A stretch of DNA of 42,324 nt. Origin: Synergistaceae bacterium (lineage in GTDB: Bacteria; Synergistota; Synergistia; Synergistales; Aminobacteriaceae). The notes below the pieces were generated by a model. It was not told the origin of the DNA. It made no database searches and saw only the letters and a program-made list of their open reading frames with translations. The stretch lies in the NCBI GenBank assembly GCA_031272145.1, contig JAISUL010000024.1, forward strand, positions 1 to 42,324, read 5' to 3'. This document shows positions 3,484 through 33,697 of the stretch, one piece after another; the first letter of the stretch is position 1; every line of letters begins with the position of its first letter. The translations under genes were made by a program, and so were the position numbers.

Positions 3484-4097
3484 TTTATAAGCTTGACCGG
3501 CAAAGGGCCGTGGTAACGGGAGTCGTAGGCGTTCGCTCTGGGGTCGACTAACCCCTCGGGGTCGACTGACTCCACCTCGGCCATCAGCCACACGCAGCCG
3601 TCGGGCACTACTATGGGGTACCGCACCTTTACCCAGCTTTCGTCGATTATCGGCGCCCTGTACGGCACTCCGTCGATCGTGATGTTGCCGCCGTCTCTGT
3701 CTATGACGGAGCCTGGCAGAGCCGCGACCCTCTTGAGCAGAGTCGGAACGATGAACGTCATGCGGTCCTCGCGTACCTCCGGCCTCTCGGCGTAAAACTC
3801 CTGCACGTCGAACGCCACCACGTCCCCGACGGCTAAGGGGTTAGTCAACCCCGAGGGGTTAGCCAACCCCAAGGGGTTAGTCCCCCCCAAGGGGTTAGTC
3901 AACCCCGAGCCGCGTTCCCCCGTGCTGACGCTGCGCCACAGCCCGACTGGGACGTGCGACGGCGAGAGGTTGATGTGAAGCCCGAACAGGGGGAAAGCCC
4001 CAAGGAACCCCCCTACGCACAGGAAGATGAGCGTCAGGCTGCGGAGCGCGCGCCTATTTATTCGGGCTTGCATTGGGGAACTTGTCCCTCGGGGCAT
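3453..4097 (-). CDS. traF: TraF-like S26 signal peptidase of conjugative transfer
   Basis: Up to 214 residues, S26 serine peptidase family. One N-terminal membrane anchor is followed by the Ser box SPSHVPVGLW and the Lys box LLKRVAALPGS. The C-terminal substrate-box region ends NAYDSRYHGPLP. In RP4-type systems TraF matures the TrbC pilin. The start is either 4097 (GGGG upstream) or 4073; both are plausible. Two foreign-looking in-frame insertions are present. One is four tandem 18-nt units at 3836-3907, translating as GLTNPL-like repeats between the Ser box and the VGDVVAF strand. The other is a shorter related pair near 3540-3570. Neither interrupts a catalytic motif. Confidence 0.85.
   Translation of the reverse strand: MPRGTSSPMQARINRRALRSLTLIFLCVGGFLGAFPLFGLHINLSPSHVPVGLWRSVSTGERGSGLTNPLGGTNPLGLANPSGLTNPLAVGDVVAFDVQEFYAERPEVREDRMTFIVPTLLKRVAALPGSVIDRDGGNITIDGVPYRAPIIDESWVKVRYPIVVPDGCVWLMAEVESVDPEGLVDPRANAYDSRYHGPLPVKLIKWKAEPLLVR
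3540..3570 (-). repeat. Diverged mini-repeat pair in the traF 3-prime region
   Basis: Two units of the form GGGGTCGACTAACCCC, related to the 18-nt repeat but with TCGAC in place of TTAGTC. They add roughly VDPEGLVDP just before the conserved YDSRY motif of traF. Confidence 0.6.
3836..3907 (-). repeat. Four tandem 18-nt palindromic mini-repeats inside traF
   Basis: Four units of 18 nt, each around GGGGTTAGTCAACCCC, whose arms GGGGTT and AACCCC can pair. They encode six residues per unit (GLTNPL, GGTNPL, GLANPS, GLTNPL) and keep the frame. Related units lie at 3540-3570, 5733-5786 and 39376-39409. Confidence 0.85.
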
Positions 4098-4326
4098 TGC
4101 CGCCCCTTTGCGCGCCAGCGTCGGACGAGCCCGCCGTTGTGTCTGCGCTGGAGACGGCGTGGATCGCGTCGAAGTTCAGGGTCATGGAGTCCGTCCACTT
4201 GTGCAGACCCTCTGCTATGGCACCGTTGCGCGCGTCCGAGTACCCCATGAACCAGCCCATCGCAAACGCGGCACCAGCGACAGCAAACAGCAGGAGTAAA
4301 AACCTCATGATCCTCACGGCGCTCAC
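4054..4326 (-). CDS. Small membrane protein between trbI and traF
   Basis: Up to 90 residues. One hydrophobic segment (residues about 7-30) contains small residues and ends in GWFMGYSDARNG. A polar Ala, Ser and Asp-rich tail follows. The GTG at 4326 overlaps the trbI stop (GTGA), implying translational coupling; the ATG at 4308 is an alternative. The end overlaps the start of traF. No family was recognised. From position it could be a small accessory or entry-exclusion-like component, but that is only inference. Confidence 0.55.
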   Translation of the reverse strand: MSAVRIMRFLLLLFAVAGAAFAMGWFMGYSDARNGAIAEGLHKWTDSMTLNFDAIHAVSSADTTAGSSDAGAQRGGNAPRDKFPNASPNK

Positions 4327-5708
4327 CGTTTTTTGTAAGGCGTGTAGGGGCCGGCGAAGGCTACGTCCTTCGTCGTGATGATGCTGAAGCGATAGCCCGG
4401 CAGGATGCGCAGGGTCGGGGCCACGTTCATGTTGCGCTCGGCCAGCCTAGCCCCAAGCTGCGTGACCTGCTGCATGGTGGCGTCGGACATCGCGTCGCCG
4501 GCGGTTAGGTTGTAGTCGTTGCGGTTCGTGTCGTTCTGCGTGGCGATCTTGCCCGCCGCTGCGAAAACCGAGGCGAACAAAGCCGCTCCCAGCATGCGTC
4601 CGTAGTGGTTGTCGACCTTTTGCTTGAAGCCCGCGTAGCCGCCCTGGTCGCTCCCCGACATCCCCTCCAGATTGAGCGACGTCCCGTCTGGGTAGATTAT
4701 CCTCTGCCATACGACGAGTATCCTCCACTGGCCGTAGACGACGTGAGAGTCGTATGATCCGATCATCCGCGAGCCCTGGGGTATCAGCAGGCTTGAGCCG
4801 GTGGCGGTGTCGTATACGTTCTCGGTCACCTGCCCCACGATCGTGCCTGGCAGGTCGCTGTTTATGCCGCCGATCATCACGCCGCTTATGATAGAGCCGG
4901 CCTTGAGCTCGTAATTCCCGCGCGGAGCCCGCCGCGATGAGCCGATGTACTCGTCCTTCGCGTCATTTGCACCCACGTTAGTTAACCCGGTGCTGTTCTT
5001 GATAAACGCGTTGTTCCTGTCCTGATGGGACATGGCCGAGGCGTTGGGGTCGGACTCGCCGTAGCCGTACTGCGGCCTCATGTTTATACCGGTAACGCCG
5101 GCGCCGCCGCCCAGCGTGTACGTGCCAGGCCAAGCCGCTACGTCGCCGTCCGAGCGTTCAGCGCCCTCCGCCGCGCCGCTTAGGGCACTTGATGCGCTTG
5201 AAGAAAGCTGCCCGCCAGACTGCGGAGGGTTGTCTAACCCCAGCTTGACGTTGGGGTCGGAGGCCAGAGCACTCATTCTGAGCTGCCTGCTGCGCGTGTA
5301 CGCCTCAGATGAAGCACGACGCACGCGCGGCTGGGCTTGGTGGCTCGTGGTATCAGTGCTCTCAGTCGGCTGCTGTTCGGGCTGCTGTTCCGGCGCGTTC
5401 AGCTTTTCCGTGGTCGGGGCCGCGGTTGGCTCGCCTGCGCTGAGCGCCGCTAAAAACCTGTCGAACCTGTCGCTGTAAGCGCCGCTAGCCGAGGCCACGA
5501 CGGAGACCGGAATAGAGGTGCTGCCGGTGCTCATCATCTCGGTCTCGCGGCTCAAGTTGAATATGACGAAGGCTATCGCAGCCCCGCCTAGCGCCGTGAG
5601 TATCCAGAAGAGCCTGTTGCTTATAGGCGTGTTTCTGAACCTCGAAGCCGCGACTTGTACGTCTTTCCTGCCGCTTTCGCTTTCGGACTGAGGTGTTGAC
5701 GCCCCCAT
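4323..5708 (-). CDS. trbI: TrbI/VirB10-type T4SS channel protein
   Basis: 461 residues, the usual length of RP4 TrbI. A cytoplasmic N-terminal segment precedes a single inner-membrane helix (residues about 32-52). A Pro, Gln and Thr-rich periplasmic linker follows, including EQQPEQQPTES. The C-terminal TrbI domain contains GSIISGVMIGGINSDLPGTI, LIPQGSRMIGSYDS, WQRIIYPDG and GYAGFKQKVDNHYGR. The protein spans inner and outer membranes and forms the core channel with TrbG. A GAGGAGGG ribosome site precedes the ATG at 5708, 13 nt after trbG. The N-terminal words FRNTPIS also occur at the C-terminus of TrbG, from a duplicated stretch of about 20 nt. A degenerate mini-repeat (GLTN) occurs around 4975-4995. 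Confidence 0.9.
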   Translation of the reverse strand: MGASTPQSESESGRKDVQVAASRFRNTPISNRLFWILTALGGAAIAFVIFNLSRETEMMSTGSTSIPVSVVASASGAYSDRFDRFLAALSAGEPTAAPTTEKLNAPEQQPEQQPTESTDTTSHQAQPRVRRASSEAYTRSRQLRMSALASDPNVKLGLDNPPQSGGQLSSSASSALSGAAEGAERSDGDVAAWPGTYTLGGGAGVTGINMRPQYGYGESDPNASAMSHQDRNNAFIKNSTGLTNVGANDAKDEYIGSSRRAPRGNYELKAGSIISGVMIGGINSDLPGTIVGQVTENVYDTATGSSLLIPQGSRMIGSYDSHVVYGQWRILVVWQRIIYPDGTSLNLEGMSGSDQGGYAGFKQKVDNHYGRMLGAALFASVFAAAGKIATQNDTNRNDYNLTAGDAMSDATMQQVTQLGARLAERNMNVAPTLRILPGYRFSIITTKDVAFAGPYTPYKKR

Positions 5709-5721
5709 TAGGCAACCCTCC

Positions 5722-6897
5722 TCAGTTCGCCTCGGGGTTAGTCAACCCCGAGGGGTTAGTCAACCCCGAGGAGTCAGTCGACCCCGCGCTTATCGGCGTG
5801 TTTCTGAATATCCCTACACGGTCTTTCCCGACCGTCAGGATGCCTACGTCGAAGAGCCTGTCGACGATGTAGAGGTTGTGCTCGACGCGGTAGTTGACCA
5901 GCTTCTCGCGCCCGCCCTGCTTGACAAACATAGCGGGGGCCTCGGTAATGTTCATGGTCTTCGGCATGACTATGTACGTCTTCCCCCCGGCGTCGTAGAC
6001 GGCCGTGGGCTTCCATGGGACGTTCTTGCCGCGGGTTACCTTCACGGTGTAGTCGAGGTTTATCGAGGCTGCGTCGGTGATCCTCGCGTCGTCCGCGATA
6101 TTCGCGCCGCTTGCTGCCTGAAGCCTCGCGGCCTTTGCCTCGTTGATCATCGCGTACTGACCGTTAAGCAGCCTCCATGACTCCTCGTCGGCGTTCTTCG
6201 CCTCATCAGGGTAGACGAAGCCGACAAACGGCATGTAGCTGCCGGTGTCCGACACTATCTCAAGCGAGTAGGTGCGCCGGTCGGTGTGGATTATCATGTT
6301 CGCCGCTATGTCGGGGAGCTGCGGCTTCAGGATGACGTGGGTCACGAGGTTGCCGGGGTTGCCGCTCCACGCGCCCGACACCGACCAGCGCGCCGAGTCG
6401 GAGATGTGCACGCTCTTGACCTGCTCGCCCGGCTCCAGCTCTATGTCCGTCAGGCGCAGCGGGCGGCACACGATCCTAGGCGTCATAGCTCCGTAGTAAA
6501 AGTTGACGCGCCCGTTGCCGCCGAGGTACGGCTCAGGAACTGAGCCGGCCTTCTCGTAGGCCTCGACCAGCTTCATAGCCGACTTGTCCACCGGTCTCAT
6601 CTGGGGTACTTTGTCGACCTCTGCCAGCTTCCTGTCGAACACGTCTGAGTCATCCGGCTCCTCGCGCGGCGGAAGGACTACAGGCCCAGTAGACTCGACG
6701 CCGTCCTCGCGCAGATTGTAAGCACTGACGAGCGCGTCGAAGGACGCGTTAAGCAGGCCGTATTCGTCGGTGTTCGCGGATGCATCGGGGTTCACGGGGA
6801 ACATACTCGCCGCCTGCGCCGATGAGACCGACAAGAGCAGCATTAAGAGCATCATTGGCACGGCAGCAAAGCCGACCACAAAAACACGAGTTTTCAT
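5722..6897 (-). CDS. trbG: TrbG/VirB9-type T4SS outer-membrane complex protein
   Basis: 391 residues with a clear signal peptide at 1-29 (hydrophobic run, then SSAQAA). The beta-rich VirB9 domain contains FYYGAMTPRIVCRPLRLTDIE, GEQVKSVHISDSARWSVSGAWSG and, in the C-terminal lobe, KPTAVYDAGGKTYIVMP. It forms the outer-membrane core with TrbI. GGAGGTG about 9 nt upstream decides the ATG at 6897; the longer frame runs antisense to conserved trbF sequence. The C-terminus carries three in-frame copies of the 18-nt mini-repeat (GLTNPSGLTNPEAN end) and an FRNTPIS block shared with the start of trbI, so the native C-terminus seems extended by about 25 residues. Confidence 0.88.
   Translation of the reverse strand: MKTRVFVVGFAAVPMMLLMLLLSVSSAQAASMFPVNPDASANTDEYGLLNASFDALVSAYNLREDGVESTGPVVLPPREEPDDSDVFDRKLAEVDKVPQMRPVDKSAMKLVEAYEKAGSVPEPYLGGNGRVNFYYGAMTPRIVCRPLRLTDIELEPGEQVKSVHISDSARWSVSGAWSGNPGNLVTHVILKPQLPDIAANMIIHTDRRTYSLEIVSDTGSYMPFVGFVYPDEAKNADEESWRLLNGQYAMINEAKAARLQAASGANIADDARITDAASINLDYTVKVTRGKNVPWKPTAVYDAGGKTYIVMPKTMNITEAPAMFVKQGGREKLVNYRVEHNLYIVDRLFDVGILTVGKDRVGIFRNTPISAGSTDSSGLTNPSGLTNPEAN
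5733..5786 (-). repeat. Three tandem 18-nt mini-repeats at the trbG 3-prime end
   Basis: Three 18-nt units (two with GGGGTTAGTCAACCCC and one diverged, GGAGTCAGTCGACCCC) encode the last residues of TrbG, just before the stop at 5722. Confidence 0.85.
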
Positions 6898-6914
6898 AAT
6901 CACTGTCACCTCCA

Positions 6915-7643
6915 TCAATTGTAAGTTCTGACGGCCTCTATACTGTAGTCGGTGATGTACACGCCCATAGGGTTGTTGAGCATGTCGAAGTAGTCCGACG
7001 GCGGCGAGACCGTCACGGTGAAGAGGCCCTCGTAGCGACTTTGCGGTGTGAGGGTGCCGTCGCTCATCGTGCTTACCTCCGACCAGTTCGCCTGATAGGT
7101 GTGGGCAGTCACAGGCACTATGGCGTCGAATTCTATGGTCACCGGCGCGGCGGCGGACGTCGGCGGGGCGCTCCTGAAGTACGCGTCCAGCTTGGACGAC
7201 GCGAAGCTGTTCGCCTTGACCGACCGGTACGCGTCCTGCGCAAAGATAAGCTGGGCGTTCCTGTCCATCACCCTGATCCTGCTGTTGAAGATGAACGTCT
7301 CCACCTGCGCCATGATAACCCTCTGGTCTACGCCCGAAACGCTGTCGAGAGGCTTGATGGGGATCGCAAATCCTTTCTCGTCCACTTGAATGACGTAGGG
7401 CTGTATCTTCGGGGTGCTGGCCAGCCAGATGTTCCCGCCGATGCTGAACGCCAGAAGCACCATGAGGGCAAACGAGGCCGCGCGCCAGTTCGCGATAGTG
7501 TCGGGCAGCGGCGTCAAGCTCTGCCTCGACTGGAGCCATGGGTTGTTCTCGAACGCGGCGCGGGCTAGCTTGTCCGACTCAGCCGCCGATGGCATTTCAG
7601 CCGCGACCGCCGCGTTATTTCTTTTTTGGATCGAAAAAAGCAT
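6915..7643 (-). CDS. trbF: TrbF/VirB8-type T4SS inner-membrane protein, second copy
   Basis: 242 residues of the VirB8/TrbF family, which scaffolds the channel at the inner membrane. A cytoplasmic N-terminus with NNPWLQSRQSLTPL precedes one membrane helix (about 55-75). The periplasmic NTF2-like domain includes IQPYVIQVDEKG, FIFNSRIRVMDRNAQ, SKLDAYF and NPMGVYITDYSIEAVRTYN. It starts 5 nt after the preceding VirB8-like gene, with GAGG upstream. Its C-terminal motif NPMG(V/I)YI(T/I)DY is shared with that neighbour, showing the two are paralogues. This copy has the longer N-terminus typical of TrbF. Confidence 0.85.
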   Translation of the reverse strand: MLFSIQKRNNAAVAAEMPSAAESDKLARAAFENNPWLQSRQSLTPLPDTIANWRAASFALMVLLAFSIGGNIWLASTPKIQPYVIQVDEKGFAIPIKPLDSVSGVDQRVIMAQVETFIFNSRIRVMDRNAQLIFAQDAYRSVKANSFASSKLDAYFRSAPPTSAAAPVTIEFDAIVPVTAHTYQANWSEVSTMSDGTLTPQSRYEGLFTVTVSPPSDYFDMLNNPMGVYITDYSIEAVRTYN

Positions 7644-13504: not shown

Positions 13505-14355
13505 GTTCCTCTCGCTTTCTCGAAGGCCAGAACCCTGTCGGTTCGCCTCTGCTGTCTTAGCGCCGCGTACCTCGCCCTGAGCTCGATGTGCCTTATGACG
13601 TCCAGGCGAAGCCGCGCCGCCTCCTGCGCTATGAACACGTAGACAAGCCTGCGCGCGAACATCGCCTGAGCGTATCCGAGCACAGCCCCAGTCCCGTATG
13701 AGAGCAAGTCGAGCTTCTTTATCAGCGCCGCCCGGCTGTCCCGCGCGTCCAATGCCTCCGTGTTGTTCCCCTTGATAGCCGCGTAGAGGTAGTCCTGCCA
13801 CTCGGCCATCATATTTTTGTAAGCCGCGGCAAAGTTGTCCCCCTTGCTGCCCGACGTGCCTGGGTACACGACGTCGAAGCTAGCGTCGAAGTCTCCCGAG
13901 CTGACGAACGAAAGCGCATCGGCCTTCCCCAGCAGAGAGTAGAGGCTGGTTATCTTGCCCGTCAGGTCCTCCCAGCTGTAGGCGCTGACCCTGCCGTGGT
14001 CGCGCACCTCGTTCTGCATTCGGGTCGTTAGCCTGCTGTCAGCAAGACTATATATGCCCTTGACCTTCGGCTCAAACGTCGCGGAGTCCTGAGTGGCCTG
14101 AATGCCCTTCAACTCGCCGCGCATCATCTCGTAGTTGCCGCTTTTGTTCACGATGGCCTTAGCCCCGGCGATGGGCGCAACCACCGCGGCGATGTCCCCA
14201 GCTGGCACGTGCCCTGTCGCCGCAGCGGTCGCGGTCGCGACAAGCCCGTCCAGCTCCTTGACCAGACTGTCAACGCTGCCCCCCGCAAACCCAGCAGCAG
14301 GAACAAAAACGGTGATAAGCAGCGCGCATACAAAAGCGGTCTGAAGGCGTTTCAT
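13471..14355 (-). CDS. TrbJ/VirB5-like secreted T4SS protein, copy 1 of 5
   Basis: 294 residues with a signal peptide ending PAAGFAGGS. It directly follows trbE with a 4-nt ATGA overlap, so it sits where trbJ normally lies. The body contains RDHGRVSAYSW, VYPGTSGSKGDNFAAAYKNMMAEW and the C-terminal AFEKARGTWQTQTSGKSY. The C-terminal Trp codon holds the start of copy 2. It is the most divergent of the five. Confidence 0.75.
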   Translation of the reverse strand: MKRLQTAFVCALLITVFVPAAGFAGGSVDSLVKELDGLVATATAAATGHVPAGDIAAVVAPIAGAKAIVNKSGNYEMMRGELKGIQATQDSATFEPKVKGIYSLADSRLTTRMQNEVRDHGRVSAYSWEDLTGKITSLYSLLGKADALSFVSSGDFDASFDVVYPGTSGSKGDNFAAAYKNMMAEWQDYLYAAIKGNNTEALDARDSRAALIKKLDLLSYGTGAVLGYAQAMFARRLVYVFIAQEAARLRLDVIRHIELRARYAALRQQRRTDRVLAFEKARGTWQTQTSGKSY

Positions 14356-16835
14356 GACGGCTTATGCTCCTTCGCTCTGTACCCGCTACTCCAGCCTTCC
14401 GCCGCGCCGGGCAGTCCGCGCTCGCCGAGCCAGTATTTCGGCCACTCTGCCCCGTGCTCGTCGCGCAGCACCTTTATCCTCGCGATGTCCTCCTTAGCCC
14501 CAGCCCCTACGAACGACAGAGCCACCGGGCCGAGGCCCAACTCAAACAGCTTCCGCCCCATCGGGTTGGCGAAGTAATAGTGCCTCTTGCGCGTCGCACC
14601 GGCTATGAGCGCCACCTGCCTGTCGTTCAGGCCGAATATCCGCTTGTACAGCTCGGCGGAGTGCTCCGTGCGCGCCTCTGGGTTCGGCAGGAATATCTTG
14701 GTCGGGCATGACTCGACCAGGGCGCTCGTTATGGCGCTCTCAGCTATGTCCGACACGTTTTGCGTCGCCATAACGACGGCGCAGTTGGCCTTGCGCAGGA
14801 CCTTCAGCCACTCCTTTATCTTGCCGGAGAAGACTGGGTTGCCAAGGGCCAGCCACGCCTCGTCTATGACCAGCATGGTGGGCCGTCCGGTCAGGCGCTT
14901 CTCTATCTGCCGGAACAAAAACAGCAGCACGGGGCCGACGATGTTCTTGCCGTACTGCATCAGCTCCTCCATCTCGAACGTCACGAGGCTCTTGTACTTT
15001 ATGTCGTTCTTCCGCCCGTCGACGAAGTTCCCCGCCGCGCCGCCGCCTATCTGGTAGTAGGACAGCAGCCGCCTCACCTTCTCGGACTGCACCGTGCTGA
15101 TGTAAGCCGTGATGGTTCTGTCCTCGCTTTTGGAGGTGGAGTCGGCCAAGATGTTCACCGCCTCGCGCACCAAAGAGCGGTCTTCGGCGCCGAGGTGGTC
15201 GCCTGGGTTGTCCTCGAGCTGGAGCTTCAGCAGGGCGTCCAGAAACTCGCATGCCCAGCCTCTGTCCTCCTGGGAGTCGAGGTCGGCCAAGGGGCAGAAG
15301 CCGCCCGCCTCGGCCAAGGCTCCGAGGTCATAGTGGGCCGCGTCCAGGCACGACGCGGTAAGGGCGAACATTGACATGCCCTTGTCGAAAACGAACACCT
15401 GGGAGTTCTTGTACCGCTCGAACTGCGAGACCAGCGTCGCCAAGAGAGTCGACTTGCCCGCGCCGGTCGGCCCCAAGATCAGAGTGTGCCCCACGTCGTC
15501 CACGTAGAGGTTCACGCGGAACGGCGTCGTGCCGATCGTCGCGGCCTGCATAAGCGCCGGGCTGTTCGGGGGGAAGTGCGGAGGAGGGGACGGGCAGAAC
15601 TCCGACCCAGACCACTCGTGCGAAAGGGGGGCCAGGTCAGCGAAGTTCAGGCTGTGAAGGTACGGCTTCCTGACGTTCTCCCGTCCGTGCCCAGGCAGAG
15701 AGCCCAGGAAGGCCTCCAGGGCGTTGCGTCTCTCCAGCCTGATGGGGAAGGCCAGGCGCTCGAAGATCTTCGTGATCTCCCTGACCCCGCGGTTGACCGT
15801 CTCCTCGTCGTCGCCCTTCAGCATGACTGTGGAGGTGTAGTGCCCGTAGATTATCGACCCCTGCTCTATGAGGGACTGGGCCGACTCCAGCTCCTTGACC
15901 ATCTGCAGCGCGTACTGGTCGGGCGGGGCAGGGGTGTTCATCATAGCGGCAGTGAAGGGGTAGACCTTCTGCTGCCATTTCCGCCTGTCGGAGTTGATCT
16001 TGTTCCGCGCGTACTGCTGATCCGTCACGATGAACCGCGACGACCACACCATGTCTATTGGCATCTTCTCCACGTCGGCCAAGATGCCAGGGTAGGAGTA
16101 GGACGGGAAGCCGTCGATGCTCAGTATCGCGACGATGCGTCCGTCGTAGACCAGGAAGTTCCCGTTTTCGAGGTCGCGGGCCAGCCACGAGTCGAGGTCG
16201 CTCGGCGGGTTCGGCAGTCGGCACGGGTGCTTCTTGGAGTTGAGTATCATATTGATGGCGCCGAGAAGCTCGTCGCAGTTCGTGGCGGGCTCGTACGTCA
16301 GACGACTGAACCGCACGGTCTGGGAGAAGCTGGTCTGGAAGCGCGCGATCATCTCGTTGAAGCGCTTTATGTCCCTCTCGATGTAGGACACGTCATCGTC
16401 GTCGCGCCCCATCATAAAGTCCCCCAGCTTCTTCATGAACCCGCCGCGCGCGTGCATGGGCGGCATGTATGTCAGGAACAAGTACGAAAACGACTCGTAG
16501 TGGGCGCCCTCTTTGGAGAACTGCGTCATGCGCTCGCCGTCTATCAGCGCGTTGGTCGGCTCGCTGAAGAACCCCTCAGGGTATCCAGACGACGGCACGC
16601 GCACCACGACCTGGTGCAGCATCCACCCCTCGTCCAGGGTCTTGACGGCGTTGTTGAACGACGCGGAGAGCCACTCTGCGTCCGCAACCGTGGCGCTCTC
16701 GAGGTCAGGCCCGCGGTAGAGGAAGCCCGCTAGGTACGAGCCGTTCTTGAGCAGCATGACGCCCGGCTCAAGCATGACCCTGTACTGCAGGTAGGCGTCC
16801 AAGCCGATCGGAGTCGGTCTGTCCTGCTGGCCCAT
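14352..16835 (-). CDS. trbE: TrbE/VirB4-type T4SS ATPase
   Basis: 827 residues, close to RP4 TrbE. The N-terminal VirB4 domain (about 1-400) includes FNNAVKTLDEGWMLH and GHYTSTVMLKG. The C-terminal AAA-like ATPase has Walker A GPTGAGKST near residue 458 and Walker B MLVIDEAWLAL near 655. VMATQNVSDIAES and an RKRHYYFANPMGRKLFEL tail follow, typical of the family. It powers pilus assembly and transfer at the inner membrane. The ATG at 16835 lies 2 nt after the trbD stop; the longer upstream frame runs antisense and was rejected. No TrbB/VirB11 partner ATPase is in the window. Confidence 0.92.
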   Translation of the reverse strand: MGQQDRPTPIGLDAYLQYRVMLEPGVMLLKNGSYLAGFLYRGPDLESATVADAEWLSASFNNAVKTLDEGWMLHQVVVRVPSSGYPEGFFSEPTNALIDGERMTQFSKEGAHYESFSYLFLTYMPPMHARGGFMKKLGDFMMGRDDDDVSYIERDIKRFNEMIARFQTSFSQTVRFSRLTYEPATNCDELLGAINMILNSKKHPCRLPNPPSDLDSWLARDLENGNFLVYDGRIVAILSIDGFPSYSYPGILADVEKMPIDMVWSSRFIVTDQQYARNKINSDRRKWQQKVYPFTAAMMNTPAPPDQYALQMVKELESAQSLIEQGSIIYGHYTSTVMLKGDDEETVNRGVREITKIFERLAFPIRLERRNALEAFLGSLPGHGRENVRKPYLHSLNFADLAPLSHEWSGSEFCPSPPPHFPPNSPALMQAATIGTTPFRVNLYVDDVGHTLILGPTGAGKSTLLATLVSQFERYKNSQVFVFDKGMSMFALTASCLDAAHYDLGALAEAGGFCPLADLDSQEDRGWACEFLDALLKLQLEDNPGDHLGAEDRSLVREAVNILADSTSKSEDRTITAYISTVQSEKVRRLLSYYQIGGGAAGNFVDGRKNDIKYKSLVTFEMEELMQYGKNIVGPVLLFLFRQIEKRLTGRPTMLVIDEAWLALGNPVFSGKIKEWLKVLRKANCAVVMATQNVSDIAESAITSALVESCPTKIFLPNPEARTEHSAELYKRIFGLNDRQVALIAGATRKRHYYFANPMGRKLFELGLGPVALSFVGAGAKEDIARIKVLRDEHGAEWPKYWLGERGLPGAAEGWSSGYRAKEHKPS

Positions 16836-16837
16836 GC

Positions 16838-17200
16838 TTAGAGCCACCTTTTGGTCACGCTCGGCGGCATCCCACTCCTGCCCCGCTCGATCAGGCTGTG
16901 GGCGGGATAGAAGAACTGGTTGATGAACGGCCTGTCCGAGTAGGAGCTGGAGCGCCGAAACACGTCCATCATAAGAGGGTCGGCCTTGCCCATCAGCCTG
17001 AGCCCGAAGCTTATCAGAAACCACGCCCCGGCCGCGAGAAACATGATGCCCCAGTTGCCCCGCGAAAAGCCGAGGTTGAACCCGACGTAGCCGCACATAA
17101 TGGCGCTGGTCGCAAACAAGCTGCGGTCGCAGCCCATAATGAGAAGCGGCTTCGTCATGCTCTGGTTTATGGTGAGCTGACGAAGCTTTTCGTCCGCCAT
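16838..17200 (-). CDS. trbD: TrbD/VirB3-type T4SS membrane protein
   Basis: 120 residues with two hydrophobic segments (about 18-40 and 48-70). Its N-terminus LTINQSMTKPLLIMGCDRSLF is typical of VirB3/TrbD, in which the P-L-G-x-R pattern is conserved. It is required for pilus formation and works with TrbE. The start at 17200 has only a weak ribosome site, so coupling to trbC is likely. The stop is followed within 2 nt by trbE. Confidence 0.85.
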   Translation of the reverse strand: MADEKLRQLTINQSMTKPLLIMGCDRSLFATSAIMCGYVGFNLGFSRGNWGIMFLAAGAWFLISFGLRLMGKADPLMMDVFRRSSSYSDRPFINQFFYPAHSLIERGRSGMPPSVTKRWL

Positions 17201-19280: not shown

Positions 19281-24331
<5,051 letters not shown>

Positions 24332-24350
<19 letters not shown>

Positions 24351-27300
24351 GAGTCGGCACCCTCCTTATCAGATTCAGAGTCAGAGCCAAACACTTCAGC
24401 ATCAGACGCGTTCGACTCCTCCGTCAAAGAAGCGTCGTCAGAGTCGGCGTCGGAATCCTCCGCGTCCTCCGCGCCGCCGGAATCCTCCGCTTCCTCCGAG
24501 TCCTCGGCCTCAAAGAGGTCGCCCCGTCCTCCCTCGTCTGAGTACGTTCTTATCCGCCCCTCAGGGGTGTCGCCCTCGAACATGATCTCGCGGCGCGGCC
24601 TCATGGTCTGCATCTCGTCCTCGTCCTCGGAGTCCATGTTCCCCATCGTGCCGTCGTCGTACTGAACCTCGACGTCAAGCCCGAGACCCTGAAGCTCCTT
24701 GACCAGCACGCGGAAGCTCTCAGGCACGCCGGGCTTGACAAGGTTCTGGCCCTTGACTATGCTCTCGTAGGTCTTGTCGCGCCCCCTGATGTCGTCGGAC
24801 TTGACCGTCAGTATCTCCTGAAGCACGTTGGCAGCGCCGTAGCCCTCCAGCGCCCAGACCTCCATCTCGCCGAACCGCTGTCCGCCGAACTGCGCCTTGC
24901 CCCCAAGCGGCTGCTGAGTTATCAAACTGTACGGGCCGGTAGACCGAGCGTGAATCTTGTCGTCAACAAGGTGAATCAGCTTCAGCATGTACATGCAGCC
25001 GACGGTCACCTTCTTCTCCATAGGCTCGCCGGTGCGCCCGTCGCGCAGCGTTATCATGCCGTGCTCCGTGAGGTCGGGGTACTTCATCGCGGCAAGCTTC
25101 CCCAGCTCCTCGAATATCTCCTCGCTCTTCGCCCCCTCAAACACCGGCGTGGCCACGTGCCAGCCGTTGTTCAGCGCAACGAAGCCCATTATCGTCTCAA
25201 GAACCTGCCCAAGGTTCATGCGGCTGGGGACGCCCAGCGGGTTCAAAACCACGTCCACCGGCGTGCCGTCGGGTAGGTAGGGCATGTCCTCCACAGGAAG
25301 TATGCGGCTCACCACGCCCTTGTTGCCGTGGCGCCCAGCCATCTTGTCCCCGACCGTTATCTTGCGCCACTGCGCCACGTAGACCTTGACCGCCCTCAAC
25401 ACGCCAGGCGAAAGCGCCTCAGGCGCCGTCTCGCGCGTCATCTGCTTGACGGCCACGATCTTTCCCCTTGCTCCGTGCGGCAGCTTGAGCGAGTTGTCTC
25501 GCACCTCGCGCGCCTTCTCGCCGAAGATCGCCCGAAGCAGCTTCTCCTCGGGCGTCTGCTCCGACTCCCCCTTGGGCGTGACCTTGCCGACCAAAATGTC
25601 CCCGGCGTTGACCTCCGCGCCGATGCGTATCACCCCGTCCTCGTCGAGGTTGCGCAGCATGTCCTCGCCGACGTTCGGGATGTCGCGCGTGATCTCCTCA
25701 GGCCCAAGCTTAGTCTCGCGCGCCTCGGTCTCGTATTCCTCTATGTGGATGGACGAAAACTTGTCGTGCTTCACAAGGTTCTCGTTGAGAAGTATCGCGT
25801 CCTCAAAGTTGTAGCCCTCCCACGGCACGAACGCAACGACCACGTTCTGCCCCAGTGCGAGCTCTCCCTCGTCCATGGACTGCCCGTCCGCTATTACCTG
25901 GTCGGCGTCGACCCTCTCGTTCTTGCGCACCAGAGGCCGCTGGTGTATCAGAGTCCCCTGGTTGGAGCGGCGGAACTTTATCAGGTCGTAGGTCTTCCGA
26001 GCCCCGCCCGGAAGCTCGCGCACCAAGAGCGCTGTGATGACCTCCGCACCCGACAAAGCCCGCTCGATCTCGCCGGCGTCAGCGGCGGTGAAGACCGCAG
26101 CGCCTCGCAGCACCAACCCACGCTCGCGCAGCGCGGCCTCAATGGCGTCGACGCCGAAGCCGCCGGACTCGGGTGTTTCGGGCTTGGCCTCGCCCAGAGT
26201 CTTCTTGAACTTCTCCAGAGCGTCACGGATGTGCTTCCCCCGCGGCCCCCTCGGGTCTACCTGAACGAGCTTGCGCCTATTCTTGAACGCCTTGTCGAGC
26301 TCGGCCACGGTCTTTATGCTGTTCTTGACCTCGAGAGCCCGCCGCGTCTGGGTGTCAAGACCCAAGACCGTCAGGGGGGAGGCCATAGACGCCGCTGGCG
26401 CCTCGGGCTTCCCGCCGACGCCCGTCTCCGCGGCGATGCGCAAGGCCAAGCCGCGAACATGAAGTGCGGCCTCGATCGCGTCGAGGTCAGAGGCGGTGAA
26501 GACGGGCTCGCCGGCGTTGGGCTTAAACTTCTCCAATGCCGCGTCGATGTCCTTTTCCAGCTGGCCGCCCTTAGAGATGTCCTTGATCTTGCTCCCTGAG
26601 TTTCTAGCCTGTACAAGATCGGCGACCGAGCTGATCTTGGGATCGGTGCTCTTCTTAATGACGTTCAGGATGCGCGCGGCGTTGGCCTTAGGCAGTAACG
26701 GCTCCAGCTTCTCCACCGGAACGTTCATCGCGCCGAGGTCAGCAGCGGTGAAAACGGGCCCGGCGCCGCCGGCCTTAAACTTCTCCAATGCCGCGTCGAT
26801 GTCCTGCTCCAGCTGGCCGCCCTTAGAGATGTCCTTGATCTTGCTCCCGGAGTTCCTAGCCTGTACAAGATCGGCGACCGAGCTGATCTCGGGGTCGGTG
26901 CTCTTCTTAATGACGTTCAGGATGCGCGCGGCGTTTGCCTTCGGCAGGAACGGCTCCAGCGTGCTTACTGGGACGTCCATGTCAGCGGGAGCGGAGGGTC
27001 TGTTTACTGCTGCCGCCAGATCAGCCCGCGACTTTGCGATAAGGCCGCTCACAGTGCTGATGCCGGCGGAATCCAGCAAGGCGTGGACAACGGCCCCGGC
27101 GCGATCGCTGTAGATGCCGAGCTCGCCGACGGGCAGGTCAGGCATGCCGTCCGGCAGGACGCCTATGCCCTCGGTGCCGCGCAAGACCAAGCCGCGCGCG
27201 CGCAGGGCGGCCTCGATGGCGTCGAGGTCAGGGGCGGTGAACACGGGCTCGGCGCCGCCCTGAAACTTCTCCAATGCCGCGTCGAGGTCATGTGACAGTT

Positions 27301-30300
27301 TGCCGGGCCTGCCGTCTTTATTGATGCCAGCTATCCCGGACTTCAGCGCCTCTATAAGCTCGGCAACCGTGGTTACCTTGGGGTCAGAGTTCCTAAGGGC
27401 TTTCAGGATATTAGAGACGTTGGTCTTAGACACGTTAGCATTAGACAAAAACTGCTCGTCCACCGGAACGTCCATGTCGACGGGGGCGGAGGAGCTGTTT
27501 GCTACTGCCGCCAGATCAGCCCGCGACTTGGCGATAAGCTCGCTCACAGTGCTGATGCCGGCGAAATCCGACAAGGCGCTGACAATAGCCTCGGCGCGAT
27601 CGCCGTAGATGCCAAGCTCGCCGACTGGCAGGTCAGGTGCGCCGTCCGGCAGGACGCCTATGCCCTCGGCGCCGCGCAAGACCAAGCCGCGCGCGCGCAG
27701 GGTGGCCGAGATGGCGTCGAGGTCAGCAGCGGTGAACACAGGCCCGGCGCCGCCCTGAAACTGCTCCAATGCCGCGTCGATGTCCTGCTCCAGCTGGCCG
27801 CCTTTGGAGATGTCCTTGATCTTGCTCCCGGATTTTCTCGCCTGTACAAGATCGGCAACAGAGCTGATATTGGGGTCAGTGCTCTTCTTAAGGACGTTCA
27901 GAATGCGGGTAGCCCGAGCCTTCGGCAAAAGCGGCTCAAGCTCGTCTATCGAAACGTCCATGTCGACGGGAGCTGAGGAGTTGTTTGCTACTGCCGCCAG
28001 ATCAGCCCGCGACTTGGCGATAAGCTCGCTCACAGTGCTGATGCCGGCGAAATCCGACAATGCGCGGACGACGTCCTCGGCGCATTTGCCGTAGATGCCG
28101 AGCTCGCCGACCGGGAGGTTCAGCACTTCGTCCGGCGCAGCGACTGCCCCTGAACTCGCCGGCAGCGCGGCCGCGTTGGGCTCAAGTGCGGTGGAAACTG
28201 GCGCACCGCTGGCCCTAAACTTCTCCAATGCCGCGTCGATGTCCTGCTCCAGCTGGCCGCCTTTAGCGATGTCCTTGATCTTGCTTCCGGACTTCCTTGC
28301 CTCCACAAGATCGGCGACCGAGCTGATCTTTGGGTCGGCGCTCTTACTAAGGACGTTCAGAGTGCGGGTGGCCCTAGCCTTCGGCAAAAACGGCTCAAGC
28401 TCGCCTATCGGAACGTTCATGTCAACAGGGGCAGGGGAGCTGTTCACCACTGCCTCCAGTTCAGCCCGCGACTTGGCAATGAGGTCGCTAATGCTCTCGA
28501 TTCCGGCGTCGCGCAGGCGGGTGAAAACGTCGCCTAGGTCGTCGACGCGGAAGTTCGGCACTTCGTAGGGCATGACGCCGGAGCCTTTGACGGACAGAAG
28601 CTCTTCCACAGTGATTAGCCTGCCAGCCGCAAGGGCGTCTAGATAGTCAGGATAGTAGTTATCAAGCAGGGCGCCGATGACTGGACTGACGTTAAAGCCC
28701 TTGGCCACGACGCGGCAGGGTGCCGACGCTAGCCTGAGAATAGAGTCGTTCAGCTTCCGATTCCTGCCGTTCACAGTTATGCCTGCAAGGTCAGTGACTA
28801 GAACCTTCCCGTTCAGCCTCTCGCGGAACGCCGCCTCGTTCACGAAAACCTCGTTGCTATAGTCCCCTGCTCCGAGCACGAACTTCGACACCATCGTGCC
28901 AGGCCTCAGGAGGAGCCGCAGCGCTGCCTCGTCCAGCGTCTTGCCGAACAGAGGCCGCGTAAGCTCGTCGGCCATGTCTATCTCTTTGATGACGAGCTGG
29001 CCGAGCTGTTCGCAGTCCAAAACGCGCCACGCCTCGTTCAGCGCGCGCATTACTTCCTTCTCGTCGCCGTCCTCGAGGACTTTTATGTACTCGGAGTCAA
29101 CCCACGTGACGACGCCCGGCCTCTTCGCCACCACGCATGAGCCGGAGTCCTTCGCTATGCGGTGCTCTATGCCTGTGCCCACGCGCGGCGCGTCGGGGAA
29201 GATCAGCGGCACGGCCTGACGCTGCATGTTAGACCCCATCAGGGCGCGGTTCGCGTCGTCGTGCTCCAAAAACGGGATAAGCGCCGTGGAGGACGAAACT
29301 ATCTGCTTCGGCGACACGTCCATGTAGTCGACGTCCTCAACTGGGATCGACTCGATGTCGTCCTGATGGCGCGTGACGACAACGCCGCCGACTGGTATGG
29401 GGGTCGCTTTCTTCTTCCAAGACTCATCGATTGCGTCGGCGTCCTCGGCGCTGAAGACCACGGCGCCGAGCAAAACCAAGCCCTCTTTACGCAAAGCGGC
29501 CTCGATCTCGTCGAGGTCAAGGGCGGTGAAAACTGGCTCGCCGCCGGGCTGCTTGGCAATAAGGCCGCGCACCGCGCTGAACTCGGCGTCGTCCACGCAG
29601 ACCTCGACCTCGCGCCCGTTGGCGGATGCAGACTCGAGTTTACTAATGGCATCCTTGACGTGCTTGAAGTTGGCCGACTTGACGCCCGTCTTGCTGCCGA
29701 CGATCTCCCCGAGCTTGTCGTCCGCCAGGTTTTTAAGCTGGCCGACGTTCTCGATACCCGCGGCATTGAGGGCGTCCACTATCTTCTTTTTAACGCCGCC
29801 GGTGGCCGGAATGTCGAGCTTGTCAAGCGGCTGGCCGTAGACGCCGCCGTCTTCGACGGCATCCGTGAGTACGAACTTCGATGCCTTAGCGTCAGGCCCG
29901 AAAAGAAGCCGTACCGCCGCCTCGTCAAGCGGCTTGCCTACCAGCGGCCTCGTCTGCTTGTCTGCCTCGTCTATCTCTTTGATAACGAGCTGGCCGCAGT
30001 CCAAAAGCTTGCGCACCAAGACCGCGGTTACAAGCGCTCCGCTGTCGTTGGCTATAACGTTACAAGGTACGTTCACGCGCTGAGGGGTGGAGTCGTTCAG
30101 CCTCTCGCGGAACGCTGCATCGTCCACGAAGACCTCGAACTCACGCCTGCCGGCGTCGCCGTCCTCGGCCGCGTCCACGAGCACGAACTTCGAGACCGCC
30201 GTGCCAGGCCCGAGGAGAAGCCGTATCGCCGCCTCGTCAAGCGGCTTGCCGATTAGTTGCCTCGTCTGCTCGTCGGCTCCGTCTACCTCTTTAAGAACGA

Positions 30301-33300
30301 GCGGGTTCGAGCTCATATCCGAGAGCTTGCGCACCAATACCGCGGTGATGACCTTCGGCAAAGCCCGCTCGATTGCGTCGACGTCATCGGCGCTGAAGAC
30401 CGAAGCGCCGCGCAAGGCCAAGCCGCGCGCGCGCAGCGCGGCTTCAACGGCGCCGACGCTCAGAGCAGCCGGAACATACCCGCTGGACTCCTTGAACTTA
30501 TCCAGGGCGTCGCGTATGAGCTTCCACCGCGGCCCCTTCGGATCCACCTGAACGAGCCTGCGCCCCTGATTGAGCGCGTCGTCAAGCGTGGCCACGGTCT
30601 TTATGTGGTTCTTTATCTCGAGAACCCTCCGCGTCTGAGTGTCGAGGCCCAAAGCGGACAGAGGAACCGTCGGCACCTTGGCCTTGAGCTTCTCGCGCGA
30701 ATTGGCGACCAGCTCGCTCACGTTCTCGATCCCAGCGTTGCGCAGGATGCTGAAGTCGCCGAGCTCGCTGACGGGGAAGTCCGGCACGCCGTCCGGCATT
30801 ACTCCGGTGCCTTTGACGGCCAAAAGCGCGCGCACGTCCCCGCCCGCGGCGTCGGGGCAGTAGTGCTCCAGCAGGGCGCGAACGGCGGCGTCCACATCAA
30901 GGGTGCCGAGATTAAATGGGTCGTCGGCCACGACGCGGCAAGGGGCAGTGATGCGCCGAAGCAGCGAATCGGACAGCCGCTCGCCGCTCGCCGCGACGCC
31001 TGGCAGGTCGCCGATGAGAGCCTTCCCGTTCAGCCTATCGCGGAACGCGGCCTCGTCCACGAAGACCTCGACCTCGCGCCTGTTGGCGGACGTGGGCTTG
31101 AGTTTGCCAAGGGCGTTCTTGACGTGCTCGAAGTTGGCTGACTTAACGCCAGTTTTGCCGCCGAGTATCTCTCCGAGCCTGTCGTCCGTCAGCCTTTGAA
31201 CCTGGCTGACGCTCTCGATGCCCGCGGCCTTGAAGGCGTCCACTATCTTCTTTTTGACGCCGCTCTTGGTCGGAATGTCGAGCTCGTCAAGCGACTGGCC
31301 GGCGTCGCCGCCTCCGGCCGCGTCAGCGAGCACGAACTTCGAGACCGCCGTGCCAGGCCCGAGGAGAAGCTGTAACGCCGCCTCGTCGAGCGGCTCGCCG
31401 ACCAGCGGCTTCGTATGCTCGTCGGCTCCGTCTATCTCTTTGAGAACAGGCGAGCCAGAGCCCAGGACGCGCAAGACCTCGGCCACGCCGCGTGAGTTCC
31501 TGCTCTCGGCCAAGACGTGCAGGACATCGTCCACAGCGCGTTTGGCCAAGATACGCAAGACCTCGACTAGGTCTCCGCCTGGCGGCGTCTTTATCTTCTC
31601 GCGAAGCTCCTCGCGCGACTTGGCGACAAGTCCGCTCACCGTGCGGATGTCTGCGAAATCCGACAAGGAGCGGACGGTATTCTCATAAAGATCGAGCTCG
31701 TCCACCGGGAAATCCGGCACTCCCTCCGGCAGGACGCCGGGGCCTCTCAATGCCGGAAGCTTTTCCCTCGCGACTCGCTCGTCTGCCTCGGCCTCGGCGG
31801 GATAATCAGGGTAATAGTTCTTGAGCAACCCGCGGAGGACGGCGTCGACGTCGAGGCCGTCTATGTTTATAGGAAAAGAGCCTGGAACCTCGCTCCCCCT
31901 GCCCACCAGGGTCTTGCCGTCGGCGGCCAGGGGCGTGCTGGCCATCGCGACGTGGTACTGATCCTCCTCGTCGGCGGCCAGAAACTCTATCTCACCGGTC
32001 AGCTTCCCGTCCTTGACCTCGCAGCGCGGCGTTATCAGGAAGCCGTAGTCGTTCAGCTTCGCGTATGTCGTCAGGGACGAGACCAGGCCTATGTTCGGCC
32101 CCTCAGGGGTCTCTATCGGGCAGACTCGGCCATAGTGCGTGTAGTGGACGTCGCGCGCCTCGAAGCCGGCTCGCTCTCTGCTCAGGCCGCCGGGGCCCAG
32201 CGCGGAAAGGCGCCGCCTGTGCGTCACCTCCGCCAGGGGGTTCGTTTGATCCATGAACTGAGAGAGCTGGCCGGAGCCGAAAAACTCCCTCAAGGCCGCC
32301 GCTATCGGGCGCACGTTTATCAGCTCCCGCCCCATCGTGGCGCTCAGGTTCGGGATCGTGGTCATGCGCTCCCTCGCGATGCGCTCCATGCGCAGTAGGC
32401 CTATTCTCAGCTGGTTCTGCAGAAGCTCGCCTATCGAGCGGACTCGGCGGTTGCCCAGGTGGTCTATGTCGTCGCTCTTCTTCTCGAGATCGCGAAGAGC
32501 GAACATCTCGCGGGCTATGGCCACGATGTCGTCCAGAGTGAGTAGCCTCTCGTCCTCGGAGATGTTCAGCCCGAGGCGGCGGTTCATCTTGTAGCGCCCG
32601 ACCCGCCCAAGCGTGTACCGCCTCGGGTCGAGGAACATGTTGCGCACGTACTCGCGGGCGTTCTCCACGCGGGCCGGCTCGTTGGGGCGGAGGCGGCGGA
32701 ATATCTCCTGCATCGCCTCGTCCACGCTCTGGGTCGTCTCCTTCTCCATCGTCAGGGCAAGGGATGGGTCAAGGGGGTAAACCTTCACTCCCTCGCGGTT
32801 CATGCGCCGCAGCCTGTCCAGAGCCTCGCGCGTGATGGGACGGCCTGACGCCGTGACCGACACCCCGCCGTCGTGTACGCTCTCGGCCGCGAGCATGCCC
32901 TTCAGGGAGTCGTCGAGGGACTTAAACTCCGGTTCAGCCCCCATCAGGCGTATGATTTCGTCGTTGTTCTTCGCCCCAAACGCCTTCATCAGCAGCGTCA
33001 TGGGCAGCTTGCGGCGGTTGTCGATGTTGACCGTCGCTATGTCCCCAGGCGTGGCGAAAAACTCCAGCCACGCCCCGCGGTCGGGTATTATCTTCGCCGA
33101 GCAGACCTCCTCGCCTCCGGTCGACTCCTCCTTCGAGAAGTAGACCCCAGCCGAGCGCGCCAGCTGGTTTATAACGACCCTCTCGGTGCCGTTTATGATG
33201 AAGGTACCCCTGTCGGTCATCACCGGAAAGTCGCTTAGGAATATCTCCTCCTCTTTCATTTCCCCAGTTTTATTGTTGGTCAGACGGATGGTGGCGCGAA

Positions 33301-33601
33301 TCGGACGCGCCCAGGTCATGTCCCGCTGACGCGCGACCGCCTCCGTCAGAACCGGCGCGTCCACGTGATAGCGGATAAACTCCAGCTTAAACTGGCCATC
33401 GTAGCTCTCTATCGGGAAGACCTCGCAGAGCAGCTCCTGAAGCCCCTGCAGCTGACGCTTGTCGGCAGGAACGTCGTCCTGATAGAACCGCCGGTAGGAA
33501 TCGCGCTGGATCTCGATCATGTTCGGTATCTCTATCAGGTCATGAGCGCGACCAAAAGTGTAACGCCGCCTCTTCTTACTCACCGTAACGAATTCAGGCA
33601 T
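24332..33601 (-). CDS. rpoB: RNA polymerase beta subunit with giant repeat insertions
   Basis: About 3,089 residues, roughly 2.5 times the usual length. The beta core is complete: rifampicin-region [13 protein letters not shown] near 445, DYMDVSPKQ near 1425, [12 protein letters not shown] near 1450, [12 protein letters not shown] near 2755, and the C-terminal clamp segment with [19 protein letters not shown]. Block 1 (residues about 571-1410) lies after DGKTLVGR. Block 2 (about 1516-2533) lies between EYIKVLEDG and [11 protein letters not shown]. Both are repeats of helix-hairpin-helix-like and other modules. The last 100 residues are an Asp, Glu and Ser-rich tail. GGGAGGG decides the ATG at 33601. 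There is no rplJ/rplL upstream. A GGGGGTC/GACTCCC hairpin lies in the leader (33623-33640). Confidence 0.95.
26000..29055 (-). repeat. RpoB insertion block 2 (about 1,020 residues), tandem array
   Basis: Coding segment between EYIKVLEDG and YDLIKFRRS of RpoB. A unit of about 490 bp recurs: the words for LPVGELGIY lie at 28089, 27602 and 27110, spaced 487 and 492 bp. Each unit has GISTVS(E/G)[11 protein letters not shown], then (A/T)RILNV(L/I)[25 protein letters not shown] and [17 protein letters not shown] shorter repeat of about 250 bp occurs near 26525 and 26770. Stretches of 40 or more bases are nearly identical between units. Confidence 0.85.
29370..31890 (-). repeat. RpoB insertion block 1 (about 840 residues)
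   Basis: Coding segment between the DGKTLVGR and VDYMDVS parts of RpoB. It contains three copies of a module with core PLDEAA(L/I/V)xLL and SKFVL (coding near 31330-31440, 30190-30300, 29870-29995). It also holds five helix-hairpin-helix-like units, such as [18 protein letters not shown] and its near copy [18 protein letters not shown]. (D/V)EAAFR(D/E)RLN words start a third module type. The frame is fully open. Confidence 0.85.
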
Positions 33602-33697
33602 GACACCAAGCCCTCCCATTATGGGGAGTCTTCGACCCCCAGGTGGAACAAAATTTTTAACCTCGGGACGGCAGACCCCGACTCGCGACGAACGGCT

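Follow-up and report, generated by a model that had tools for sequence, protein, structure and literature searches.

An RNA polymerase beta subunit enlarged by alphaCTD-like repeats and beta' segments, and a fused alpha subunit, in a Synergistaceae bacterium

The window analysed here, a stretch of 42,324 nucleotides from a Synergistaceae bacterium (positions 1 to 42,324 of contig JAISUL010000024.1, assembly GCA_031272145.1), carries rpoB and rpoC, the genes for the beta and beta' subunits of RNA polymerase (RNAP), on its minus strand (Table 1). Few bacterial proteins are as strongly conserved as the RNAP core subunits, whose alpha2-beta-beta' plan is near-fixed. We find that RpoB of this bacterium is about 2.5 times the size of a normal beta, and that it is encoded by one open frame of 3095 amino acids (aa) counted from the ATG, or 3089 aa from the second Met, which is the start behind the 9.3-kb frame of about 3,089 residues in the original prediction. 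The Pfam domains of an ordinary beta are all recovered in order (Rpb2 domains 1, 2, 3, 45, 6 and 7). The genome is a metagenome-assembled genome (MAG) of 2.05 Mb in 107 contigs, 97.8% complete with a contamination of 0, and a search of it for a second, normal rpoB, which the original prediction had named as a contrary sign, found none in this 97.8%-complete assembly.

Insert borders were set by a MAFFT alignment against 34 RpoBs (33 relatives and E. coli). The original prediction had placed about 840 and 1,020 extra residues at 26000-31890, on either side of a conserved segment, and the alignment agrees closely, giving inserts of 842 and 1023 aa separated by 100 residues; as foreseen, an ordinary beta of about 1230 aa is left once both are removed. 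Insert 1 is flanked by the equivalents of E. coli beta residues 629 and 635, in domain beta-uD3, and insert 2 by those of residues 734 and 744, in beta-bD1 (domain names follow PMC11515920). The expectation of an intact core also holds, given that RpoB keeps 348 of the 349 columns invariant among the other aligned sequences, together with the key E. coli beta residues, and a pseudogene is ruled out by these intact core columns. RpoC keeps all of its invariant columns (401/401). The chance of the frames staying open was calculated as 1.7e-11 and 4e-14, while other frames carry 25-51 stops, and the inserts share GC content, GC content at third codon positions (GC3) and codon usage with the rest of rpoB. 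Beyond the core, RpoB ends in a strongly acidic tail of about 100 residues, rich in Asp, Glu and Ser (24335-24640).

Table 1 Features of the rpoBC region, with positions in the window and residues (res.) of the encoded protein
Feature	Position	Strand	Residues and basis
rpoC	19281..24350	-	1689 aa; normal for lineage, full-length relatives about 1640-1790 aa
Part of beta' lineage-specific domain	20118..20540	-	RpoC res. 1271-1411; presumed donor of beta'-like segments
rpoB	24332..33619	-	3095 aa, about 334 kDa; one open frame
Beta core, C-terminal part	24335..26008	-	res. 2538-3095; catalytic motifs intact (Pfam, column check)
Insert 2	26009..29077	-	res. 1515-2537, 1023 aa; alignment
alphaCTD-like repeat, B type	26201..26383	-	res. 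2413-2473; hhalign
DNA-level tandem array	26475..28489	.	periods 495 and 252 bases; copies 77-91% matched; Tandem Repeats Finder
alphaCTD-like repeat, B type	26519..26725	-	res. 2299-2367; hhalign
alphaCTD-like repeat, B type	26771..26977	-	res. 2215-2283; hhalign
alphaCTD-like half-repeat, A type	27005..27139	-	res. 2161-2205; hhalign
alphaCTD-like repeat, B type	27257..27472	-	res. 2050-2121; hhalign
alphaCTD-like half-repeat, A type	27500..27634	-	res. 1996-2040; hhalign
alphaCTD-like repeat, B type	27752..27958	-	res. 1888-1956; hhalign
alphaCTD-like half-repeat, A type	27986..28120	-	res. 1834-1878; hhalign
alphaCTD-like repeat, B type	28211..28417	-	res. 1735-1803; hhalign
alphaCTD-like half-repeat, A type	28445..28555	-	res. 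1689-1725; hhalign
beta'-like segment	28688..28993	-	res. 1543-1644; 38% identical to RpoC 1296-1411; blastp E=9e-13
Conserved beta core separating inserts	29078..29377	-	res. 1415-1514, 100 residues; alignment
Insert 1	29378..31903	-	res. 573-1414, 842 aa; alignment
alphaCTD-like repeat, B type	29630..29833	-	res. 1263-1330; hhalign
beta'-like segment	29834..29980	-	res. 1214-1262; blastp
beta'-like segment	30050..30298	-	res. 1108-1190; blastp E=4e-14 over longer stretch
alphaCTD-like repeat, B type	30488..30670	-	res. 984-1044; hhalign
alphaCTD-like half-repeat, A type	30674..30781	-	res. 947-982; hhalign
beta'-like segment, second half	30872..31069	-	res. 851-916; blastp
alphaCTD-like repeat, B type	31094..31297	-	res. 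775-842; within beta'-like segment; hhalign
beta'-like segment	31328..31528	-	res. 698-764; 52% identical to own RpoC 1271-1335; blastp E=4e-13
alphaCTD-like half-repeat, A type	31592..31714	-	res. 636-676; hhalign
Beta core, N-terminal part	31904..33619	-	res. 1-572; alignment with 34 RpoBs

Profile comparison of the insert content, a check suggested alongside the original prediction, reveals repeats resembling the C-terminal domain of the alpha subunit (alphaCTD). The Pfam family RNA_pol_A_CTD (PF03118) matches RpoB with a whole-protein E=1.4e-16, and the two inserts together hold 15 degenerate CTD-like repeats, of which six belong to a short A type and the other nine to a B type. In hhalign, the six A-type repeats reach 95.6% against the native alphaCTD, the B-type repeats of RpoA (described below) reach 96.5% against the same domain, and the B-type repeats of RpoB reach 96.7% against those of RpoA, while column-shuffled controls give at most 1.5%. 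Insert 2 also matches the repeat array of RpoA directly in blastp (E=2e-45, 30% over about 700 aa), and five of the seven matches of the repeat profile in the PDB are RNAP alpha chains, all of them weak (E 0.14-0.44). By eye, the DNA-contact residues of the domain (E. coli R265, N268, G296, K298 and S299) are largely missing from both A and B repeats, and the repeat blocks are acidic, with net charges of -17 to -25 per block. Two insert fragments were modelled, with predicted local distance difference test (pLDDT) values of 64 for a mostly helical fragment and 45 for a beta' segment. A duplicated beta core was considered as the source of the inserts and rejected, as they have no blastp match to the RpoB core.

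The remaining recognisable content resembles beta', in which a domain specific to the phylum is the presumed donor; four to five copies of a portion of this domain are present. This large C-terminal domain of RpoC (residues about 1257-1560) is present in the aligned relatives and absent in E. coli; an rpoC insertion peculiar to this genome is rejected for that reason. One of the B repeats of insert 1 sits inside a beta'-like segment, and we consequently regard that part of the insert as a nested insertion. Genome-wide tblastn searches with the inserts return significant matches in rpoB, rpoA and rpoC only.

A search of the genome with PF03118 led to an rpoA frame with several copies of the domain on a separate contig (C6, the rpoBC contig being C78). 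This frame, measured at 1347 aa in the domain search, encodes 1345 aa, four times the size of a normal alpha, within a gene order that is itself normal (S13-S11-rpoA-L17). It holds two matches to PF01000, and its layout is that of an alpha N-terminal domain (alphaNTD) followed by a CTD, then a second, interrupted alphaNTD and a final CTD; a single frame with two alphaNTDs occurs in no other of the 188 genomes searched in the phylum. The interruption (RpoA 386-1075, about 690 aa of CTD-like repeats) replaces a loop of the second alphaNTD that reads IDGVLHEFST.PGV in alpha1 and in relatives, and that corresponds to a beta-contacting segment of E. coli alpha. Conserved NTD columns are kept at 90 of 109 positions in alpha1 and 78 of 109 in alpha2, and of the canonical CTDs, CTD1 keeps the DNA-contact residues except K298 whereas CTD2 keeps all five. 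As rpoA is equally deformed and shares its repeats with rpoB, the whole enzyme is affected and not beta alone. The original prediction was thus correct as to two giant insertions in beta, yet it missed both their content of alphaCTD-like repeats and beta' fragments and the giant rpoA.

The two alphas also differ in which contact regions they conserve. Footprinting in E. coli assigns alpha residues 30-55 and 65-75 to contacts with beta, and residues 175-185 and 195-210 to contacts with beta' (PMC3294249). At the conserved columns of E. coli alpha 61-75, alpha1 keeps 11/11 and alpha2 1/11, whereas at those of 181-195 alpha1 keeps 3/8 and alpha2 7/8. This pattern gives moderate support to an arrangement in which alpha1 would face beta and alpha2 would face beta'.

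We find no evidence for comparable subunits elsewhere. Among 60 relatives of the family and order, and in a search of 83 genomes of the family, rpoB reaches at most 1394 aa and is mostly 1200-1280 aa, and the insertions are thus absent from relatives, as expected of the lineage-specific event originally proposed. At 74 loci of other phyla, no full rpoB frame is longer than 1470 aa. In 50 genomes reached via loci from many phyla, rpoA frames do not exceed 486 aa, and neither a fused alpha pair nor alphaCTD-like arrays in beta were found. The literature that was covered, which is part of the field, yielded no report of a fused alpha, of an alpha with multiple CTDs or of alphaCTD arrays in beta. 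In many species of a sister genus in the family (g16, loci L105-L118), RpoA carries a long low-complexity C-terminal tail rich in Lys, Glu and Pro, with frames of up to 674 aa, so that alpha is enlarged there in another manner. A family-wide trait is rejected, given the size limit of rpoB in relatives and the fact that the long rpoA frames of the sister genus reflect these tails. The 1394-aa RpoB itself (genome G098, locus L125, contig C4) has a 58-aa insert at the site of insert 2 (residues 698-755) together with a long tail; it is rejected as an intermediate, since its insert resembles a duplicated neighbouring segment of beta and not CTD repeats. Insert 2 has no tblastn match in 50,697 phage records, and a scan of contigs of other genomes with the same insert confirmed nothing.

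Further features of the genome deserve mention. At another locus (L144, G000:C30:51000-59000), two RpoD-like genes lie next to each other on the plus strand (2648-3835 and 3840-4958, encoding 395 and 372 aa), an arrangement of adjacent primary sigma genes not seen in the 40 relatives searched, and it is possible that this pair is linked to the changes in RNAP. Beside it, on the minus strand (6528-7493), is a gene for a protein that by eye resembles ankyrin repeats. The rpoBC contig also carries a gene for a VirB4/TraG-like type IV secretion ATPase of 914 aa (window 14352-17096, minus strand).

Taken at the level of sequence, the composition and sites of the inserts, the intact core and the fusion of the alphas are established. 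From the tandem array and the shared content we infer recent growth via tandem duplication and exchange among rpoA, rpoB and rpoC, and the content of CTDs suggests, without proving, that alpha came first. Most pairs of RpoB repeats have ratios of nonsynonymous to synonymous substitution (dN/dS) of 0.3-0.6. The explanation that we consider probable is a recent, lineage-restricted inflation of RNAP by duplication within its own genes under relaxed purifying selection, with canonical CTDs serving the promoter and the remaining copies forming helical arms. Support for it includes the restriction of significant insert matches to rpoB, rpoA and rpoC, the two alphaNTDs in one frame, the complementary losses in the two alphas, the dN/dS values, the intact core columns and the normal gene order around rpoA. 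As the sequence shows, rpoA encodes two alphas fused head to tail in one chain, an alphaCTD-like array breaks the second alphaNTD in the loop corresponding to the beta-contacting segment of E. coli alpha, and related repeats with copies of part of the beta' domain fill two loops of beta. Under this explanation, one fused alpha would take the place of the usual alpha dimer and would always be oriented with alpha1 to beta and alpha2 to beta', assembly and catalysis would presumably be normal, and the two canonical CTDs would make the promoter contacts. The roughly 23 other CTD-like domains, from which the DNA-contact residues are mostly gone, probably act as helical arms for spacing or protein docking; such arms would lengthen through tandem duplication, and selection would maintain no more than their open frame and their folding.

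Several of our observations weigh against this explanation. No relative at an intermediate stage was found, with the exception of G098 and its duplication of 58 aa at site 2. Compared directly with the native alphaCTD, the B-type repeats of RpoB reach 60.5% in hhalign, and their alphaCTD origin consequently rests on the link through RpoA; Foldseek with the poor fragment models (pLDDT 64 and 45) returned no alphaCTD and no significant match. Within the precise segments footprinted for beta', alpha1 keeps as many conserved columns as alpha2 (7/9 and 6/9 each), and the equivalents of Arg45 and Lys86 occur in both alphas; the main basis of the proposed orientation is therefore the broken loop at 65-75, together with a motif lost near 188-195. 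One pair of RpoB repeats has a dN/dS near 1. Finally, the genome is a single MAG without reads, in which the copy number of a 77-92% identical array could be a product of assembly, and the number of repeats at 26475-28489 may therefore be off.

A potential alternative is that the added sequence is pure ballast: surface loops would have grown neutrally, in a ratchet-like manner, through slippage and unequal crossing-over, and a small or host-bound population would have tolerated the growth. The likeness of the tandem copies in DNA (77-92%), the repeat pair with a dN/dS of about 1, and the restriction of the trait to this one genome of the family are all consistent with such growth, as is the separate enlargement of RpoA in the sister genus through low-complexity tails, from which it appears that the lineage tolerates growth of RNAP. 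However, ballast would have to account for donors of two kinds, alpha and beta', for insertion at three separate sites, and for 2500 codons whose frames remain intact with most dN/dS values at 0.3-0.6, and we regard it as rather unlikely. The opposite possibility is that the CTD-like domains work as a multivalent array, in which many weak contacts, be they with upstream DNA, with activators or with further polymerases, would make promoters more fully occupied or gather the enzyme into clusters. The alphaCTD is indeed the module that contacts DNA and activators (PMC13374769), many copies have been kept in frame with dN/dS mostly below 1, and the tandem primary sigma genes, unseen in 40 relatives, hint at a wider change in transcription. 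Yet the contact residues of the 265 type, mostly kept in the canonical CTDs, are largely gone from the A and B repeats, and net charges of -17 to -25 per block disfavour unspecific binding to DNA. This combination of lost contacts and acidity makes a DNA-binding array less likely, and we favour a scaffold that is tolerated or mildly useful; a working array of the above kind seems improbable to us. Only slightly less doubtful is the broader proposition that the single covalent alpha-alpha chain and about 25 domains of the alphaCTD family form a selected multivalent array for regulation or scaffolding, its modules spreading among rpoA, rpoB and rpoC by recombination.

The remaining alternatives would do away with the giant subunits altogether. 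Foreign repeats or mis-joined reads might have produced the long frames, and a draft MAG of 107 contigs with repeats, which are classic assembly trouble, invites this suspicion. However, the same kind of change is found on two contigs (C6 and C78), in the usual operon or beside rpoC, and frames of this length would stay open by chance with a probability of about 1e-10 to 1e-14. Moreover, codon usage and GC are native, genome contamination is 0, and no other source of the insert sequences exists in the genome or in the phages searched, which makes an artefact of assembly or binning very unlikely. Least credible of all is the removal of the inserts after translation, in the manner of inteins, or the cleavage of the alpha array, to leave a normal enzyme. 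Without the inserts the alignment does show a normal core, and the fused alpha does hold two nearly complete units, but no intein (Hint) or homing-endonuclease domain occurs among Pfam matches up to E=1, and the inserts consist of polymerase domains. The alpha array, furthermore, lies inside alphaNTD2, and cleavage alone would therefore break that domain.

The inflation by duplication that we propose has partial counterparts among known polymerases. BEAN and HABAS domains, the beta insertions of E. coli and cyanobacterial Si3 are likewise lineage-restricted domains placed in loops of beta or beta' with the core kept (PMC11515920; PMC10802570). Most of the beta insertions known consist of one BEAN domain of about 90-100 residues (PMC11515920), and the largest RNAP insertion known is said to be Si3, with 645 residues (PMC10802570). 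The present inserts (842 and 1023 aa) exceed Si3 as well as the E. coli insertions to which they were originally compared, and they differ in consisting of alphaCTD-like repeats and beta' pieces, a content read from Pfam and hhalign with no direct run of BEAN or HABAS profiles. With respect to the five beta sites listed in PMC11515920, site 2 (beta-bD1) lies outside them all and site 1, in beta-uD3, is apparently downstream of the type 2 site. If real, the inserts mean that about 1000 residues can be accommodated in each of the beta loops at E. coli 630-634 and 735-743, and they offer a recent example for studying the growth of an essential machine, be it through a neutral ratchet or a selected function, with two core subunits enlarged 2.5- and 4-fold from the enzyme's own parts.

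Arrays of alphaCTD matches outside RNAP are exemplified by a stand-alone 585-aa frame with four in tandem (genome G214, locus L180, annotated as Bacillota, C34:4707-5528), yet that frame is not recognised as an RNAP subunit, and rpoA of the same genome is a separate 323-aa frame. Core subunits are also covalently joined in Helicobacter and Wolinella, where the fusion is of beta with beta' (PMC3294249) and involves neither an alpha fusion nor repeat arrays. A further likeness is to Francisella, with its alpha1 and alpha2, and to Rpo3-Rpo11 (Rpb3-Rpb11), in which two unlike alphas divide the contacts with beta and beta' (PMC3294249), as the two alphas may do here. The divided alphas of Francisella are separate genes (PMC3294249), and in comparison with its alpha2, Arg45 is here present in both alphas. 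In the Synergistaceae bacterium, by contrast with these systems, a single polypeptide holds both alphas, with about 690 aa interrupting one of them, and a one-chain alpha with such signs of divided roles may represent a parallel in bacteria to the Rpo3-Rpo11 pair of archaea and eukaryotes.

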